DNA from: a virus
Reading direction: 5' to 3' (one strand)
DNA length: 26,781 nucleotides
IMG/VR virus record: IMGVR_UViG_3300042521_002296
Span: 1 to 26,781 of that record
Positions 1,936-26,781 of this stretch are shown here, piece after piece; position 1 is the stretch's first letter, and every line of letters starts with the position of its first letter. The notes below the pieces were generated by a model. The model saw only the letters and a list, made by a program, of their open reading frames with translations. It was not told where the DNA came from and did not search any database. The position numbers and the translations under genes were made by a program.

Positions 1936-1964
1936 AATGTATCTTAACATCATGGGAAAGTCAA
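1936..1964 (-). promoter_or_regulatory. Candidate sigma-70 promoter before the scaffold gene
   Basis: On the minus strand TTGACT (1964-1959) is followed after exactly 17 bases by TACATT (1941-1936). That gives five of six matches at -35 and four of six at -10. The -35 overlaps the portal stop codon. It would start a transcript near 1929 that carries scaffold and capsid with a leader of about 75 bases, giving extra transcript for the two proteins needed in most copies. It is a sequence match only. Confidence 0.42.
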
Positions 1965-3970
1965 GCCTGTTGCTTGGGGCCCATCTGCATTACGTCCAGG
2001 GGGGCTCCCGCTCCGGGGACGGCTGGGAGTGGACCGGCTGGGCCTCCTCCTGGCATTCCTCCTGGTACACCGGCTACGGCTGCGGCACCCGCGGCGGCCA
2101 GCTGCTCTCTTTCCTTGATATGCCTGTCTATAAGGGCATGCTGCTCAGGGAGTAGGTACTTATATTCAGTAGTCATTACATACTCATAGCAGTATTCCAG
2201 CATGTTCTTGTGGTCCTGGAGGTCCCGTGGTGGGATATAGATATCCTTGGCCAGCATCTCCTCAAAGAACTCCCTTTGACGGTCAGCGGCCAGCTGTGTC
2301 TTGTCGTATAAACCCTCAAGTTCATTGAGCTTTACCATTTGTAGGATAGTCCTTGTACTAATGCCAGCCTTCTCGAAGAGGGGCATCATATTAAGGACCT
2401 CGGTACGCCGGGTAGTTGGGTCAAGAGACAAGGATGCTCCGTACTCTACGGTAAGGTCGAATCCCCCATCAATATCCGCGCCCTTGATATCAATGGCCTC
2501 AAATGCCTTCTCTTTTCCGAGAACATGTATCACCCTACTCTCCTCCCAATACTTACGAATTAGGTTAAGGTAGAATCTGTATACACTCTCGGTCATCATT
2601 ACGTACTTATTAAAGAGGCGGTGCCTAATTAGGTTGGCCTGATTAGTGGCGTACTGCATTAGGAACCCGGACTGCTCCCTGGACTGCTGCCCGAACATGG
2701 CCTCGTTAACGCCAGCCATATCATCAATCCCCTGTTTAGCCTGTTGAATAAGCTGAGGAAATGCGGCTGGCAGTGGCATTGGTTCCATGAAATGTGGGGG
2801 CTGATTGCCGGTAATCTTAATAATATCCCAGGGACTATTGGTGATAGCGCCGTCGGCAATCTCTGCGCCCTCGGGAAGTATCATTCTGGCGACCCCGTGA
2901 GAGTGGAGGTTATCCAGCATCACGTTAAACATCTTGTTATAGGTCTCTTGCAGGGAGGTCTCGTAGGATACTACGGCCTTTCCCCAGACAGCGCCTGGCA
3001 TGTCGATATCAGTAAAGATGTGGTAGGGGAGGACGGCCTTGGATGGCATCGGCTTATCGGACATCTCTCCCATACCCTCAACGCCCCGATTCTTAGGGGA
3101 ACTAAAGCGCATTGGGTTAGGGGCGACATCAGTGAGCAGCTCGGCATTCCTGGTCATGAAGCAGAAGCGGCCAATCATACCATTATATGGCAGGCCCTTC
3201 TCCCAGTATTGATAAATCTCTACCACATCGTAGCGTTTATCGTTAAAGTTTCTATTAGTGCCGTACTCAGTCCTACGAGTTTCCTCCGTAATCCTGTACT
3301 TATCCAGCGTGTCCTTATGCTCAGGGAACCTGTAAAGGGCCTCATCATAGGGCATAAAGATGCGCTCGAACATGTACTTTATTTCTTCTATACGGGTAGC
3401 GTCCGGGTCAATATAGATATCCCAGGGAGATGGTACCGTAAAATCAATATCACCCTCCATGGTCAGTTCTCCGGAGGCCTCATCAAAGTCTACGATGTCT
3501 CCCTTGTCCGGGTCCCATACCGTCCTTACTATACCCGTACCATAGATAAGGGTATTAAGGGATGCCTGGTCAAATAGTTCCTGCATCTGATACTTACGGA
3601 TAGCGAATCGTATCAGCCGGTCAGCGGCGTCCGCCTTTCTGCGGTCAGATGGGTCATTGCTCGTAGGACGGGTGACTACCGTTGGTGGATTGGCGGATAG
3701 TTGGGAGTGAATTAGTCTAGTATTCTTAAAGGCGTAATTGACACCGACATTAGGATTACTGCTATCCACATCAGAGATACCTACCTGCATCTCGGACTCA
3801 AAGGATACGGATACGCCCGGACCTGATGGCTTTCCCCTGGTATTGAACAGGGTGGTCTCATTCTCCTGCCACTGACTCTCAAAGGTCTTACGGGAATCTA
3901 TACAAAAGGACAATCTTTTATAAAGTTCTTGACTGGCCTGTTCAGGCGTCCAGATAATTATCCTAGCCAT
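1961..3970 (-). CDS. Portal protein
   Basis: A 669-residue protein with the features of a phage portal: an early segment with NVGVNYAFKNTRLIHSQL, a run of conserved aromatic and acidic motifs (WDPDKG, PSPWDIYIDPDATRIEEIKYM, PYDEALYRFP) and a long helical region around residues 330-480 (SYETSLQETYNKMFNVMLDN, NQANLIRHRLFNKY). Twelve copies would form the DNA channel at one capsid vertex and dock the terminase during packaging. The last 45 residues are low-complexity Gly, Pro and Ala, which probably form a flexible tail. The start ATG at 3970 overlaps the upstream stop codon by one base (TAATG). It follows the terminase region and precedes scaffold, as in a standard head module. Base composition matches the neighbours. 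Confidence 0.9.
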   Translation of the reverse strand: MARIIIWTPEQASQELYKRLSFCIDSRKTFESQWQENETTLFNTRGKPSGPGVSVSFESEMQVGISDVDSSNPNVGVNYAFKNTRLIHSQLSANPPTVVTRPTSNDPSDRRKADAADRLIRFAIRKYQMQELFDQASLNTLIYGTGIVRTVWDPDKGDIVDFDEASGELTMEGDIDFTVPSPWDIYIDPDATRIEEIKYMFERIFMPYDEALYRFPEHKDTLDKYRITEETRRTEYGTNRNFNDKRYDVVEIYQYWEKGLPYNGMIGRFCFMTRNAELLTDVAPNPMRFSSPKNRGVEGMGEMSDKPMPSKAVLPYHIFTDIDMPGAVWGKAVVSYETSLQETYNKMFNVMLDNLHSHGVARMILPEGAEIADGAITNSPWDIIKITGNQPPHFMEPMPLPAAFPQLIQQAKQGIDDMAGVNEAMFGQQSREQSGFLMQYATNQANLIRHRLFNKYVMMTESVYRFYLNLIRKYWEESRVIHVLGKEKAFEAIDIKGADIDGGFDLTVEYGASLSLDPTTRRTEVLNMMPLFEKAGISTRTILQMVKLNELEGLYDKTQLAADRQREFFEEMLAKDIYIPPRDLQDHKNMLEYCYEYVMTTEYKYLLPEQHALIDRHIKEREQLAAAGAAAVAGVPGGMPGGGPAGPLPAVPGAGAPLDVMQMGPKQQA

Positions 3971-4254: not shown

Positions 4255-4403
4255 AGAGTCCTCCTTCCTCGTGTAGCAATAACTAAAAGCTGGGCTAGTT
4301 TCTTTTTCTCTATCTGTATTTTTTTCTTCTCGGCCCTGACCGCCAGTAGGAGGAGGGCAGTTACGGGAAGTGCCAGGTGTATGGCTACTAGAAATTCTAC
4401 CAT
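4251..4403 (-). CDS. 50-residue single-span membrane peptide
   Basis: A short frame, MVEFLVAIHLALPVTALLLL onward, with one hydrophobic segment over residues 2-22 and then a strongly basic tail (RAEKKKIQIEKKK...RGRRTL). Its ATG overlaps the last codons of the terminase gene and its stop overlaps the ATG of the next gene, so it fills the gap exactly. AAGGGGAAG is found about 8 bases upstream of the start. The charge pattern predicts the basic tail in the cytoplasm. A holin- or spanin-related role is conceivable for a small membrane protein in a late operon, but no holin family feature beyond a single span is visible, so the function is left open. Confidence 0.62.
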   Translation of the reverse strand: MVEFLVAIHLALPVTALLLLAVRAEKKKIQIEKKKLAQLLVIATRGRRTL

Positions 4404-5842
4404 CTGGTTCTTCCCCTTGTGATTTTCCAGTATTTTCTATTATTAGAGGATAACTGCATTGCTAGTTTATTGTCTTTTTTGCGCTGCTCATTAGCCGTTC
4501 TTAGCTCTGCCTGCCAGGAGAGACCCGCGGTAATTCCCTCGTACTTCGGCATACAATCCACGAAATACTGTGCGCTATCAAGGAGATGGAAGGAGCTGCT
4601 ATTAACAATCTTATTAGCGCCCGTCTCTGACCAGCGGCATGTCTCGAACTCGTCCACCAGGTCAGTACACCAGCTGGATATCCGGATACGGGGGCCAATT
4701 GCGGATTGCAGTCCCTTGATAAGCTCGGCCTTTCGGTCATTCTTACGGTAGGGTGTCATATAGGTGAGCCCCATTGAGGCGGCGGTAGCCGCGTACCAGG
4801 GGTTAGCTGAGTCGCAGATACGCCTGACTATATTAAGCCCGGCGGTTCTCTTCTGAACCTCCTTAACCAGGTCGGATGGTACGAAAATGCCCGTGATATA
4901 GTCTGCCCTGACGCAGTACCATATCCCGTCAGCGGGGTCTTCGGCCCAGATAGTGAATCCGAACTTACTCTTGGTGGCGGGGTCGCTTGATTCCACATGA
5001 CGCCAGCCAGGTGAGTAACCTGGGGGGTCAGTTACCATGCTCTCTCTATTAAAGAAGTAGACCATGTCGTCACCAGTCAGCCAGTCGCCTGAAAGGACTG
5101 TGTTTTTGTAGGCATCTGAGTAGGTGGCAAGGGAGGAAAGAATCTTGAGCTTATCCTCATCGGTATAGATGGGATTATCGAACATCCTGAACTGATACTT
5201 CTTGGCGTTATGGCCGTCCGAGAGGTCGATAAGTCTTTGAATATCTCTATTTATTTGCTTGGGGGTAAAGGTGGATAAGAAGTACCCCTTATGGGCCTGG
5301 ACCCTGCGATGGAGCTCCTCTAGTAGCTTGACACTGCCTGGCATCTCATCTAACCAGACGTAATGAGCCACGAAACCCTGGAGTTTTTCCTGGGCCTCTT
5401 TCTCATTATGGTGGGAGCCGTAGATTATTGTACTCCCAGTTGGCTTATATGTGAGTTTTTGGACAACACCGCCCTGGCGCTGAACATGGTAGGAGTCCGG
5501 CTCTAGGAAAGAGATAATCTTACGGTGTAAGACCTCCTCTACCTGCTTAGTTACCCTACCGACTACCAGAATTTGGAGTGGGGCATCTCCCCAGTCCTTA
5601 GGACGTTTCCATTTTGGGTGAGTTTCAGTGAGAACCCAGGCTACCTCACGGGCAGCTAACTGGGATTTGCCAGACTGATTACCGGCGGTTACATATCTGT
5701 GAGAAATAATTCCGATGTCATCGAGAACGGCCTGTTGGGCGTCATTGGGCCTACTCCCCTTGCGAGCAGCATCAAAACACTCCTGCATTTCTAGCCGTTG
5801 CAGTCGTTTAACTGCGGCGGCCAGCTGCCGTGGGTCCTGCAT
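4397..5842 (-). CDS. terL: Terminase large subunit (packaging ATPase and nuclease)
   Basis: A 481-residue motor protein that pumps DNA through the portal and cuts concatemers. The ATPase domain shows Walker A at about residues 51-60 (VTAGNQSGKS, Lys59) and Walker B with the catalytic acid at about 160-166 (HYVWLDE). The C-terminal nuclease domain begins with the acidic motif SSDPATKSKFGFTIW and carries further acidic positions in ICDSANPW and AQYFVDC, as in RNase H-fold terminase nucleases. ATG at 5842 is preferred over a GTG 15 codons upstream because AGGAAG lies about 8 bases before it and the upstream gene ends at 5844. The stop overlaps the next small gene. It is at normal length for the family and shows no broken motif. 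Confidence 0.93.
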   Translation of the reverse strand: MQDPRQLAAAVKRLQRLEMQECFDAARKGSRPNDAQQAVLDDIGIISHRYVTAGNQSGKSQLAAREVAWVLTETHPKWKRPKDWGDAPLQILVVGRVTKQVEEVLHRKIISFLEPDSYHVQRQGGVVQKLTYKPTGSTIIYGSHHNEKEAQEKLQGFVAHYVWLDEMPGSVKLLEELHRRVQAHKGYFLSTFTPKQINRDIQRLIDLSDGHNAKKYQFRMFDNPIYTDEDKLKILSSLATYSDAYKNTVLSGDWLTGDDMVYFFNRESMVTDPPGYSPGWRHVESSDPATKSKFGFTIWAEDPADGIWYCVRADYITGIFVPSDLVKEVQKRTAGLNIVRRICDSANPWYAATAASMGLTYMTPYRKNDRKAELIKGLQSAIGPRIRISSWCTDLVDEFETCRWSETGANKIVNSSSFHLLDSAQYFVDCMPKYEGITAGLSWQAELRTANEQRKKDNKLAMQLSSNNRKYWKITRGRTRW

Positions 5843-5843
5843 C

Positions 5844-6224
5844 TTAGTCTTCCTGAATGACCCAGGCCGCGTCGATAGTGACGGCACTACCCGCGCCTGT
5901 GGTCACCACTAATTCTCCGATAGAGAGCAGTGGGAGGTAGGTTTGGTCAGCCGCTATGCTTACATTCAATTTAATATAGACTATTCCGTTAGCGGTAATG
6001 GCCACGGTCTTGCTATCCACGGCCACCTGTGGGCCTATCCTGGTCCTGAGCTTGGCGGTGATACCCGCTCCTGCTGTCACCGCACTGGCGCTGATGGCGA
6101 GGACCATACTGGTACTGCCCCCGGCTGTGATGGTGAATGTGCTACTGATAGGGGTATTGGTGGCGGATGCTCCCACTACGGGGGCATTGGGGAGGGAGAT
6201 TAGGCGGGGAATCCATGCGTTCAT
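5844..6224 (-). CDS. Small beta-rich structural protein
   Basis: A 126-residue protein rich in Ala, Val, Ile, Thr and Gly with alternating beta-strand patterns (FTITAGGSTSMVLAISASAV, KTVAITANGIVYIKLNVSI) and almost no charged surface repeats. Such composition is typical of small virion proteins such as head decoration or tail-associated jelly-roll proteins, but I cannot name a family. It is the first gene after the minus-strand terminator and extended -10 promoter at 6259-6331, so it leads the head operon. Its stop lies one base before the terminase ATG, so terminase translation is probably coupled to it. The ribosome binding site is weak (AGGA about 11 bases upstream). Confidence 0.68.
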   Translation of the reverse strand: MNAWIPRLISLPNAPVVGASATNTPISSTFTITAGGSTSMVLAISASAVTAGAGITAKLRTRIGPQVAVDSKTVAITANGIVYIKLNVSIAADQTYLPLLSIGELVVTTGAGSAVTIDAAWVIQED

Positions 6225-18446: not shown

Positions 18447-18492
18447 CCGTGTGTGTGTACTAATTATAGACAGAGGCTGGGAGGTTGGTCAA

Positions 18493-18894
18493 GTGTTTTG
18501 TTTACCCCACAGAGTATCCCTTGTGCTGGCCGTCGAGGGAATACCCGTGCGCTGGGAGACCATCAAGGTACCCAATCCATCGGGCAGCTGCCCATTCTGC
18601 CGGGCCAACAAGGAGGGGGAGGCCTCCGTAAAAAAGGCACTGGACAGGTGGATACAGGCGGCCCGCATGGACCCGAAGATTTTAACAGATAGTCCTAAAG
18701 TTTCCTCAAATAATTCCGATAAGGAGAGTGGCGTGGATTTCAAGACACAACAACTGAACAAGGAAAAGCAGCGGGTAGAGAGCAACCGCAAGATAGTGCA
18801 GGGCCTCAAGGGTAATAGTATTCCTAACAACAACAAGAGATTGAGCAATGAGTCAGCATCCCCAAAGAAACCAAATCACCTTAGGATTGTTTAA
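18493..18894 (+). CDS. Protein with a CxxC knuckle and a basic low-complexity tail
   Basis: A 133-residue frame from GTG at 18493, chosen because GGGAGG lies eight bases upstream; an in-frame GTG at 18451 has no such site. The first half has strands LVLAVEGIPVRWETIKVPNP followed by SGSCPFCRANKEGEASVKKA, where CPFC could bind a metal. After residue 75 the sequence turns into Ser, Asn, Lys and Gln-rich low complexity. Sigma-28-type promoter D is embedded in this second half, so codon choice there is constrained by the promoter and the tail may be a spacer. The gene could also end functionally earlier in evolution. Function unknown. Confidence 0.55.
   Translation: MFCLPHRVSLVLAVEGIPVRWETIKVPNPSGSCPFCRANKEGEASVKKALDRWIQAARMDPKILTDSPKVSSNNSDKESGVDFKTQQLNKEKQRVESNRKIVQGLKGNSIPNNNKRLSNESASPKKPNHLRIV
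18696..18722 (+). promoter_or_regulatory. Sigma-28-type promoter D
   Basis: TAAAGTTT (eight of eight) is followed after 11 bases by TCCGATAA (seven of eight). Transcription would start near 18729. It lies inside the coding sequence of the preceding gene and upstream of the exported ClpP-like gene at 18899. Confidence 0.72.
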
Positions 18895-18898
18895 CATT

Positions 18899-19600
18899 AT
18901 GAAATACTTTAGTACACTACTTATCTCCCTGCTCATCGGTGCCGCCAGTGCGTCAGCCGGTATGGTCGTGGACATGACGGGGCCACGCACCCTTCGCGTT
19001 GAGGGCGTCATCTTGGGCAATGCCCTTGACCTAGCCCATAAGGTGGAGCGGATGTCCAGCGAGAGTCAGGAACCTATCGACCTGCTTATCAATAGTCCGG
19101 GCGGTAGCGTGGAGGCTGGCCTTCAGTTGGTCGAGGCTATGCACATTGCTCAGAACCGGGGCGTTACCATTCGCTGCGCCGTCAGTACGCTGGCCGCCAG
19201 TATGGCATTCGTTATTCTTAATGAGTGTGATGAGCGATATGCCCTGTCCAACTCCCTACTCCTGTTCCACCCGGCTCGGGCCATGCTGATGTTCGCCGTA
19301 ATCAAGGCTGACGATGCCCGTAAGATGTCAGAGGACCTTGAATTTGTTGACGCTCTCATTACTGATATGCTTGAGGAGGGAATGGGCGTGGTGACTGCCC
19401 AGCAGAAGTCCTGGTACCAGTACCACTTTACCAAGGAGACACTCTGGACCGCATCGCACCTCTCTCATGAGGTTCCTAACTCTAGTTGGATTGTGATTGT
19501 GTCTGACATCAAGGCCAAGGGCGGTCTCTTCGGTAATGATAATGTGAAAGAGAATGCTGAGGGTATCAAGAACTTTCTTAAGCAGAGGGGTAACCAGTGA
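18899..19600 (+). CDS. Exported ClpP-like serine protease
   Basis: A 233-residue ClpP/crotonase-fold protein. ATG at 18899 starts a clear signal peptide (MKYFSTLLISLLIGAASASA, likely cut after Ala20), so this start is preferred over ATG at 18848. The core shows DLLINSPGGSVEAGLQLVEA (the ClpP S-x-G-G strand), the nucleophile in VSTLAASMAFVI (Ser101) and the His in LLFHPAR (His124). The third catalytic position, Asp in ClpP, aligns with Glu in TKETLWTAS. A periplasmic ClpP-like enzyme is odd: ClpP normally works in the cytoplasm with an unfolding ATPase. It may act on envelope proteins at entry or lysis, or block superinfection. The stop overlaps the next GTG. Confidence 0.78.
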   Translation: MKYFSTLLISLLIGAASASAGMVVDMTGPRTLRVEGVILGNALDLAHKVERMSSESQEPIDLLINSPGGSVEAGLQLVEAMHIAQNRGVTIRCAVSTLAASMAFVILNECDERYALSNSLLLFHPARAMLMFAVIKADDARKMSEDLEFVDALITDMLEEGMGVVTAQQKSWYQYHFTKETLWTASHLSHEVPNSSWIVIVSDIKAKGGLFGNDNVKENAEGIKNFLKQRGNQ

Positions 19601-25613: not shown

Positions 25614-25941
25614 GTGGTATGTGTATCTTATCTGGGATGGCAGAAGAACCTATGTCGGCAGTACCACGGATGTTAAGCGCCGCCTTCGTCAGCACAATGG
25701 AGAGATTGTGGGTGGGGCCCGGTCAACCAGAAAGTCAGCGGGACGATGGGCAGTGGTAGCATACCTGGCGGGCTTCTTGGATAGGAGTACCGCCTGTCGC
25801 TGGGAGGCACTGGTCAAGAAGCGTGCCAGGGGGCGAGTGCCCAGAATGGATGCGATGGCCCTAGTGTCGGTTGGCATGTGTCCGCCCGGTAGAATGAACT
25901 ATGAAGTACCCACAGGAATTACCTTAGTCATAGAGGGATAG
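25591..25941 (+). CDS. GIY-YIG nuclease
   Basis: A 116-residue small GIY-YIG domain protein: the first strands WYVYLIWDGRRTYVGSTTDV carry the V-Y-L ... T-Y-V-G-S-T signature, followed by the Arg-rich helix KRRLRQHNGEI with the conserved Arg, and a later Glu in ACRWEALVKK that can serve as metal ligand. This fits the UvrC/Slx1-like class and not the homing endonucleases with long DNA-binding tails. ATG at 25591 is used because GAGGA is well spaced; ATG at 25579 in the same frame is possible. It follows the resolvase and may help cut branched or host DNA. Confidence 0.78.
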   Translation: MKRTKKSEWYVYLIWDGRRTYVGSTTDVKRRLRQHNGEIVGGARSTRKSAGRWAVVAYLAGFLDRSTACRWEALVKKRARGRVPRMDAMALVSVGMCPPGRMNYEVPTGITLVIEG

Positions 25942-25943
25942 TG

Positions 25944-26528
25944 ATGGCAGGCAGGAAACTCGACACCGATAACATGCTCCTCTTCTTGGACAGGGGCATT
26001 CATGTTCCCAGCCGCACCCTCTTCCTATCCGGAGAAATCACAAGGGAAACCGTTGACTCTACTATACGGGGCCTGGTCCTTCTGAACCACCTCAGTAGTG
26101 AGGACTCAATCCGTTTGGTCCTCAATAGTGATGGTGGTGAGGTTAACCAGGGCCTCGCCCTGATGGACTGCATTGCTAGTATTCCTGCTGTCGTTACCAT
26201 TGATGTGGTCGGGGAGGCCTGCTCAATGGCCGCCATTATTCTACAGGCCGGTGATATCAGACGACTATCAGCTAACTCCAGGGTAATGATACATGTTGGG
26301 AGCGAGGGCTATGATGAGAATCATGCCACAATTATTAGAAGGTGGGCTAAGTATCAGGCTAAAGAAGATAAGATTTGTACCGATAAGGTACTAGAGAGAA
26401 TCAGAGAGAGACATCCTGACTTCACAAGGAGTCGCCTTAATAGACTGATGGACTTTGATACCATCCTTACGGCCAATGAGGCCATTGAATTGGGGTTAGC
26501 TGATGAGATTATTTCTAGTATCGTGTAG
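25944..26528 (+). CDS. ClpP-like serine protease
   Basis: A 194-residue ClpP protein with the complete triad: Ser94 in GEACSMAAIIL, His117 in SRVMIHVGSE and Asp172 in MDFDTILTANEA. It has the ClpP strand LVLNSDGGEVNQGLALMDCI and the end motif AIELGLADEI. The length matches bacterial ClpP. ATG at 25944 is chosen over GTG at 25941 because of its spacing to GAGGGA. It lacks a signal peptide, unlike the protein at 18899. The coding sequence contains sigma-28-type promoter G. Phage ClpP-like enzymes can act as capsid maturation proteases, but this one lies among early/middle genes, away from the head cluster. Confidence 0.85.
   Translation: MAGRKLDTDNMLLFLDRGIHVPSRTLFLSGEITRETVDSTIRGLVLLNHLSSEDSIRLVLNSDGGEVNQGLALMDCIASIPAVVTIDVVGEACSMAAIILQAGDIRRLSANSRVMIHVGSEGYDENHATIIRRWAKYQAKEDKICTDKVLERIRERHPDFTRSRLNRLMDFDTILTANEAIELGLADEIISSIV
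26360..26386 (+). promoter_or_regulatory. Sigma-28-type promoter G (inside the ClpP gene)
   Basis: TAAAGAAG (five of eight, with TAAAG intact) is followed after 11 bases by ACCGATAA (seven of eight). It would start a transcript near 26393, about 110 bases before the lipoprotein gene. It is the weakest -35 of the set, so it could be a chance match within coding sequence. Confidence 0.45.
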
Positions 26529-26781
26529 CCTTGGTGTGCTTGGTGTCTTTGGCTGTGTAACCAGCGAGTCAGGTCTGCCTCCGTGCGACCCTAACAAGGT
26601 GTATATACAGACCGTGCCAGCTACCTGTGCCCCTGTAGTAACGAAATCAACTGAGAGCGTTACTCGGAGTTGTCCTGAGGTACGGGATATAGGTGGACCG
26701 TTTACTAATATAGACAAACAGAATAAGGAGGTAGCCCGTAAGCGGTGTGTTGAAATCTATCCGGCCAGTCCCTGTCTCAAG
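26503..26781 (+). CDS. Putative exported lipoprotein, N-terminal part (runs off the right edge)
   Basis: An open frame of 93 codons from ATG at 26503, overlapping the end of the ClpP gene. GGGG is seen about 7 bases before it. The first 18 residues, MRLFLVSCSLGVLGVFGC, look like a lipoprotein signal with the lipobox Val-Phe-Gly-Cys18. The mature part has further Cys residues and a KKVYIQT-like stretch, then NKEVARKRCVEIYPASPCLK. The C-terminal words resemble ones I recall in small phage proteins of unknown role, but I cannot name a family. A spanin-like outer-membrane lipoprotein is one option, an envelope exclusion protein another. Confidence 0.55.
   Translation, partial: MRLFLVSCSLGVLGVFGCVTSESGLPPCDPNKVYIQTVPATCAPVVTKSTESVTRSCPEVRDIGGPFTNIDKQNKEVARKRCVEIYPASPCLK

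Follow-up and report, generated by a model that had tools for sequence, protein, structure and literature searches.

ClpP is a cytoplasmic or organellar barrel fed by an ATPase. ClpP-related proteins also serve phages as head maturation proteases (NF045542; phrog_94, phrog_2976), and SppA (TIGR00706), an enzyme of related fold, uses a Ser-Lys pair in catalysis and works in the envelope outside the cytoplasm. We compared these systems with a gene, here called ClpP1 (Table 1), from the IMG/VR record of an uncultivated bacterial virus; the whole record of 26,781 bases, which may be a fragment, was analysed and is referred to as the window. With ClpP (PF00574, TIGR00493) the ClpP1 protein shares the fold, the SPGG motif, the nucleophilic Ser, the His and, in our model, the long handle helix, and it differs in its predicted export, a Cys pair, a Glu for Asp and an N-terminus too short for the axial loop. 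Head maturation proteases share with it a phage origin, frequent Glu at the acid position and the best profile scores, but these scores fall under the cut-off, and ClpP1 is probably exported, is encoded outside the head block and is accompanied in the same phage by a second ClpP. SppA resembles it in its related fold and, if ClpP1 is indeed exported, in acting in the envelope outside the cytoplasm; the profile score is far under the cut-off, and ClpP1 has Ser-His rather than Ser-Lys.

A precedent in kind comes from a phage-derived secreted metzincin that is reported to sensitise Listeria to phage lysis (PMC8235301). The metzincin of this metzincin/TIMP pair is, as ClpP1 would be, a secreted protease of phage origin, but it is a metalloprotease of a Gram-positive host with another partner, and it has no homology to ClpP1. 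The literature searched yielded no exported, secreted or periplasmic ClpP and nothing on an exported phage ClpP, and we found no description there, PMC8235301 and PMC9723584 included, of ClpP export, the Cys pair or coupling to an SLT (lytic transglycosylase) gene. The fold and family are already known; the features apparently undescribed, as far as these searches show, are export, the Cys pair and the coupling to SLT.

Table 1. Positions of ClpP1, its key residues and nearby features in the window
Feature	Position	Strand	Basis or remark
Sigma-28 (FliA)-like motif	18696..18722	+	One mismatch to TAAAGTTT-N11-GCCGATAA; syntenic at L039 4782-4808
Possible short basic ORF	18733..18894	+	GTG start after AAGGAG; between promoter motif and ClpP1
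ClpP1 CDS (predicted exported ClpP-like protease)	18899..19600	+	233 aa; ORF, Pfam, AlphaFold2 model, Foldseek
Predicted Sec signal peptide, residues 1-20	18899..18958	+	Likely cut after A20 (A-S-A, then G); hydropathy, start-codon comparison
Cys93 codon, proposed disulphide partner	19175..19177	+	Invariant, 17/17 class A lineages
Ser101 codon, nucleophile	19199..19201	+	Invariant, 17/17 class A lineages
Cys110 codon, proposed disulphide partner	19226..19228	+	Invariant, 17/17 class A lineages
His124 codon, general base	19268..19270	+	Invariant, 17/17 class A lineages
His176 codon, class A signature one helix turn before acid	19424..19426	+	His in 15/17 lineages
Glu180 codon, position of ClpP catalytic Asp	19436..19438	+	Glu in 15/17 class A lineages
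Small ORF, 100 aa	19597..19899	+	Overlaps ClpP1 end; without Pfam match
ClpP2, second leaderless ClpP-like protein	25941..26528	+	Pfam E 2.7e-31

Fold, catalytic residues and leader of ClpP1

ClpP1 matched the Pfam family CLP_protease (PF00574) with E 3.5e-12 and 47 bits, above the cut-off of 20.2, and scored 32.2 bits against TIGR00493, the ATP-dependent ClpP subunit, under its equivalog cut-off of 308.6. An AlphaFold2 model made from an input alignment of nine relatives (pLDDT 84.8, pTM 0.79) aligned with ClpP chains at Z ~22 over 161-168 residues (residues 25-205) with rmsd 1.6-2.5, and the best Foldseek match had an E of 2e-12. The sequence-only reading had named structure prediction as a check, and the model agrees with that reading: ClpP1 has a ClpP fold. 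Against the nearest relative, L039 (55% amino acid identity), nucleotide differences at the three codon positions numbered 84/57/139, a pattern by which the gene is judged to be under purifying selection.

As the sequence-only reading had supposed, Ser101 and His124 occupy the places of the ClpP Ser and His; they are retained in all 17 class A lineages described below. The Ser-His-Asp triad of the family is not complete in ClpP1, where Glu180 replaces the Asp. In the alignment Glu180 takes the place of the catalytic Asp; by DSSP on the model it stands at the end of one helix and five residues ahead of the next, which comes after a short strand, and D171 of E. coli ClpP has the same placement. 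The Glu had also been read correctly from the sequence, yet it is ordinary among phage ClpP-type proteases: it is found at the acid position in 38 of 52 leaderless phage, 24 of 30 leader-bearing and 3 of 74 bacterial ClpP-type sequences, and was therefore rejected as a novelty. His176, four residues before Glu180, is more distinctive, with His at this position in 0/74 bacterial and 0/52 non-exported phage sequences of the set. ClpP1 is likely to be catalytically active.

An exported but inactive ClpP fold, serving as a scaffold or inhibitor, is very improbable on the same comparison. The acid position holds Q or N in two of the 17 class A lineages, which fits such a loss of activity, but the Ser and His are invariant in all 17, and G68 and G69 are invariant among the 12 class A sequences tested.

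In the ClpP1 N-terminus, MKYFSTLLISLLIGAASASA followed by GMVV, a basic n-region precedes a hydrophobic stretch free of charges, and the cleavage motif A-S-A stands ahead of G; the signal peptide was assigned from hydropathy and this motif. Leaders across the relatives were called by a hydropathy rule and by eye (L044, L069 and ten late additions by eye alone), and a hydrophobic leader was present in 17/17 class A lineages. The textbook signal peptide noted earlier thus has counterparts throughout the class. Translation could instead start at ATG 18848, leaving the signal internal and unused. This start lies 17 codons upstream of the aligned Met, whereas in a comparison of 11 relatives upstream start codons lay no more than 8 codons away; the 18848 start has no counterpart among them, which favours the start at 18899, and we rejected it.

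Among 74 bacterial ClpP-like ORFs the median number of residues ahead of the core strand is 32; with the cut placed at the predicted site, mature ClpP1 would have ~9. This leaves no space for the axial loop, whose role in ClpP is general knowledge, and the short mature N-terminus argues, at the level of sequence, against a tetradecamer that docks a Clp ATPase. A further claim, on the tyrosines that dock the Clp ATPase, was dropped, as the bacterial sequences also lacked Tyr at the columns compared.

Relatives and the cysteine pair

A single-sequence search with the ClpP1 protein over viral contigs found no relative, and none of 50,697 phage records matched over 80% of the protein; the window's terminase and polymerase had only remote matches among these records. 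Terminase relatives at 23 loci led to four ClpP1 relatives in 18 records searched, and an alignment of the window with three of these four led to 31 loci, partly from the same records. One search pattern of the 31-locus scan contained the Cys110 region, which biased its relatives to Cys110; later patterns were free of that region, and further relatives came from these later alignment scans. Sequences longer than 420 aa, L067 and near-duplicates were removed ahead of the counts. The last scan contributed L274 and L275 from four loci examined (also L269 and L293); in the scan before it near-identical siblings and repeat records were skipped, L265 was dropped as a duplicate and L264 was left out. 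No usable ORF was obtained from L167, L169, L190, L198, L208 or L214.

We use class A, a name of our own, for the putatively exported phage ClpP-like proteins that have a leader, S101, H124 and C93/C110, all of which the window protein has. The class comprises 17 lineages after removal of near-duplicates, with pairwise identities of 23-62%. A five-sequence alignment run against genomes gave 226 relatives (best E 6e-10); among the best 80 of these 226, those examined had no leader and were ordinary ClpP or head-type proteases. The ClpP-like proteins of Salmonella phage Munch, Vibrio phage phiKT1024 and Pseudomonas phage Paride, whose records were examined in full, were leaderless.

A second leader-bearing group, class B (e.g. 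L051-L057, L065, L252, L253, L255, L259, L266), has its Cys pair near the C-terminus instead. At two class B loci (L051 4135-5717, L055 4146-5780) a small membrane protein and a putatively exported, weakly metzincin-like protein (HExxH) precede the ClpP-like gene, and nearby after that gene is a membrane-anchored protein whose C-terminus is beta-strand-like and ends in F. A third group (L153-L157) has the class A Cys pair, and its gene comes after one for a leaderless ClpP, in the vicinity of a terminase-like gene; at L153 4062-5537 and L157 1967-4509 the leader-bearing and leaderless genes lie close together upstream of the terminase-like gene.

Of the leader-bearing ClpP-like sequences, 23 of 40 had the C93/C110 pair, which lies around the active site, as against 0 of 132 leaderless ones (Fisher p 4e-18). 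The cysteines of the mature protein were even in number, and not zero, in 38 of the 40 with a leader; both tests are inflated by common descent. Among 126 leaderless sequences, 28 were cysteine-free and 41 had a single cysteine. The even pattern appeared in more than one leader-bearing group, with different pairs. The restriction of C93/C110 to leader-bearing sequences and the even counts point to a C93-C110 disulphide formed in an oxidising compartment.

Genomic setting

The minus-strand arm of the window carries the portal (1961-3970) and terminase (4397-5887) genes. The plus-strand arm, from ~13.4 kb, contains ClpP1, a dATP/dGTP diphosphohydrolase (20008), a weakly Cas4-like gene (20498), a family A DNA polymerase (21836) and the second ClpP-like gene (25941). 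At 18.9 kb on the plus strand, ClpP1 lies with replication genes (dNTPase, Cas4-like, SSB-like, PolA), away from the structural arm with its terminase and portal at 2.0-5.9 kb on the minus strand, and is not part of a terminase-portal-capsid block. Two PF00574 genes occurred in 9 of the 21 records searched. Beside ClpP1 in the window we recognised neither a holin nor a spanin gene. At the other end of the arm, an ORF at 26503-26781 that runs off the window overlaps the ClpP2 end and has a lipoprotein-like start (LGVFGC); it may encode an outer-membrane spanin or some other lipoprotein of the phage. The short basic ORF ahead of ClpP1 is nested in frame inside a longer ORF (18451-18894), and its L039 counterpart is an internal ATG with a Shine-Dalgarno sequence after the promoter motif, at 4834. 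Small basic ORFs resembling, by eye, the one at the ClpP1 end follow ClpP1 in L039, G010, G013 and G008.

Wall-hydrolase genes are frequent neighbours of ClpP1 in class A. Of 16 class A records, 13 had an SLT (PF01464) match above cut-off, compared to 0 of 18 others. A home-made SLT profile, rather than Pfam, assigned SLT at four more class A loci (L236-L238, L244) and also had one match in class B, at L052, where it lies 4.3 kb away from ClpP. The SLT gene adjoins ClpP1 or lies within 0.6 kb of it in 12 of 17 lineages, and because it is limited to these, the linkage was not used to define class A. In seven lineages (L044, G010, G013, L151, L236, L237, L238) the two genes overlap by 1-13 nt, the exact overlap in L237 and L238 varying with the start codon chosen, which suggests that translation of SLT and ClpP1 is coupled there. 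The gene order in G008 and G012 is Amidase_2, ClpP1, SLT, and in the L040 group SLT lies 2.1 kb downstream. The SLT proteins examined have leader-like starts of their own. SLT was absent from the window (26.8 kb), its L039 relative (60 kb) and the L150 record (46 kb), and none was seen at the truncated L245 locus; the pairing is therefore not obligatory.

The motif upstream of ClpP1 follows TAAAGTTT-N11-GCCGATAA, the E. coli FliA consensus. At up to three mismatches the window has five such sites (13262, 14442, 18696, 21442, 24142), all on the plus strand, where 0.15 were expected, and 0 of 100 shuffles reached five. The ClpP1 site ends 176 bases ahead of the gene. In L039, ClpP1 and the SSB-like gene are each preceded by a site at the corresponding place, while 40 kb of other L039 phage regions scanned had none. 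G008 has a perfect match within its plus-strand arm, and a perfect match is noted at L037 3104. Near ClpP1 in several other class A loci the motif was not found, and by these comparisons the site before ClpP1 is conserved in the window/L039 branch only. The flagellar promoter theme that the sequence-only reading linked to the substrate accordingly stands as a motif, which may indicate the sigma factor that reads ClpP1 and has no bearing on what the enzyme cuts.

Possible roles in the envelope

Taken together, the leader, a Cys pair peculiar to leader-bearing proteins and the linkage to exported wall enzymes make it very probable that ClpP1 is exported out of the cytoplasm. Of the periplasmic location proposed earlier, the export is retained; the word periplasm presumes a Gram-negative host. 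We propose that ClpP1 carries a cleavable Sec signal when synthesised in the host cytoplasm, crosses the inner membrane and folds as a ClpP protomer, the exported protein being stabilised by a C93-C110 disulphide. ATP is not expected to be supplied beyond the cytoplasm, and this, with the N-terminus too short for the axial loop, leads us to propose an ATP-independent enzyme. ClpP1 would then work in the cell envelope as an ATPase-free peptidase that uses Ser101, His124 and Glu180.

In most relatives the gene is linked to one for an exported lytic transglycosylase. The likeliest task of such a pair would be a joint weakening of the infected cell's envelope, with the transglycosylase acting on glycan strands and the protease on envelope proteins or peptides. 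The window lineage retains the protease without the SLT neighbour. That ClpP1 acts in the cell envelope can fairly be inferred, and to this extent the earlier suggestion of envelope or surface substrates holds; its flagellar and receptor examples have no support. The two genes ahead of the ClpP-like gene at the class B loci L051 and L055, for the metzincin-like and the small membrane protein, give a hint in favour of an envelope role. For a role in breaking the envelope we regard the chances as about even. A fuller picture, taken as one joint reading, is possible but doubtful: a phage envelope-breaching module in which a Sec-exported, disulphide-bonded ClpP is translated together with an exported lytic transglycosylase and assists or takes the place of lysis by holin, endolysin and spanin, as an ATPase-free ClpP machine outside the cytoplasm, under a sigma-28-type promoter in the window lineage. 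If an exported, cysteine-paired ClpP-like family linked to wall hydrolases is real, phages have adapted the ClpP barrel to envelope work, and proteolysis can be tested as a part of phage lysis or exclusion.

The position in the replication arm and the sigma-28-like motif suggest that expression may not be late, and an earlier role is possible, e.g. in exclusion. The exported protease might alter or remove receptors or injection channels soon after infection, remodelling the envelope early or excluding superinfection, and the motif's absence from the other L039 regions fits this. We consider it unlikely, as the tight SLT and amidase linkage would be left unexplained and we know of no exclusion protein with a ClpP fold. 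Rather less probable is clearance of the SppA kind, in which an exported ClpP barrel degrades signal peptides and unfolded periplasmic peptides and so eases stress during infection. The related fold and a weak SppA profile match (E 2e-5) speak for this, and a ClpP-type barrel without an unfoldase cuts chiefly peptides; however, the match, at 24.4 bits, lies far under the cut-off of 155.45, ClpP1 has a conserved Ser-His pair, and such a role does not predict linkage to wall hydrolases. Least credible, below even the inactive fold discussed above, is a cytoplasmic head maturation protease with an incidental hydrophobic start or translation from 18848: the best NCBIfam and PHROG profile matches are of that kind, but NF045542 scored 48.9 bits against a cut-off of 120, the same phage has the leaderless ClpP2, ClpP1 is not beside portal or capsid genes, and the leader and Cys pair are conserved while the 18848 start is not.

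Other genes were noted near class A ClpP genes. A Ferritin/Dps-like gene lies two genes upstream of ClpP1 in L039 (4147-4581; Pfam E 2.4e-5, just above cut-off). At L037 6260-6982 and L048 4172-5263, hexapeptide-like repeats (GNAWVFGDAKVSG...) suggest left-handed beta-helix proteins.
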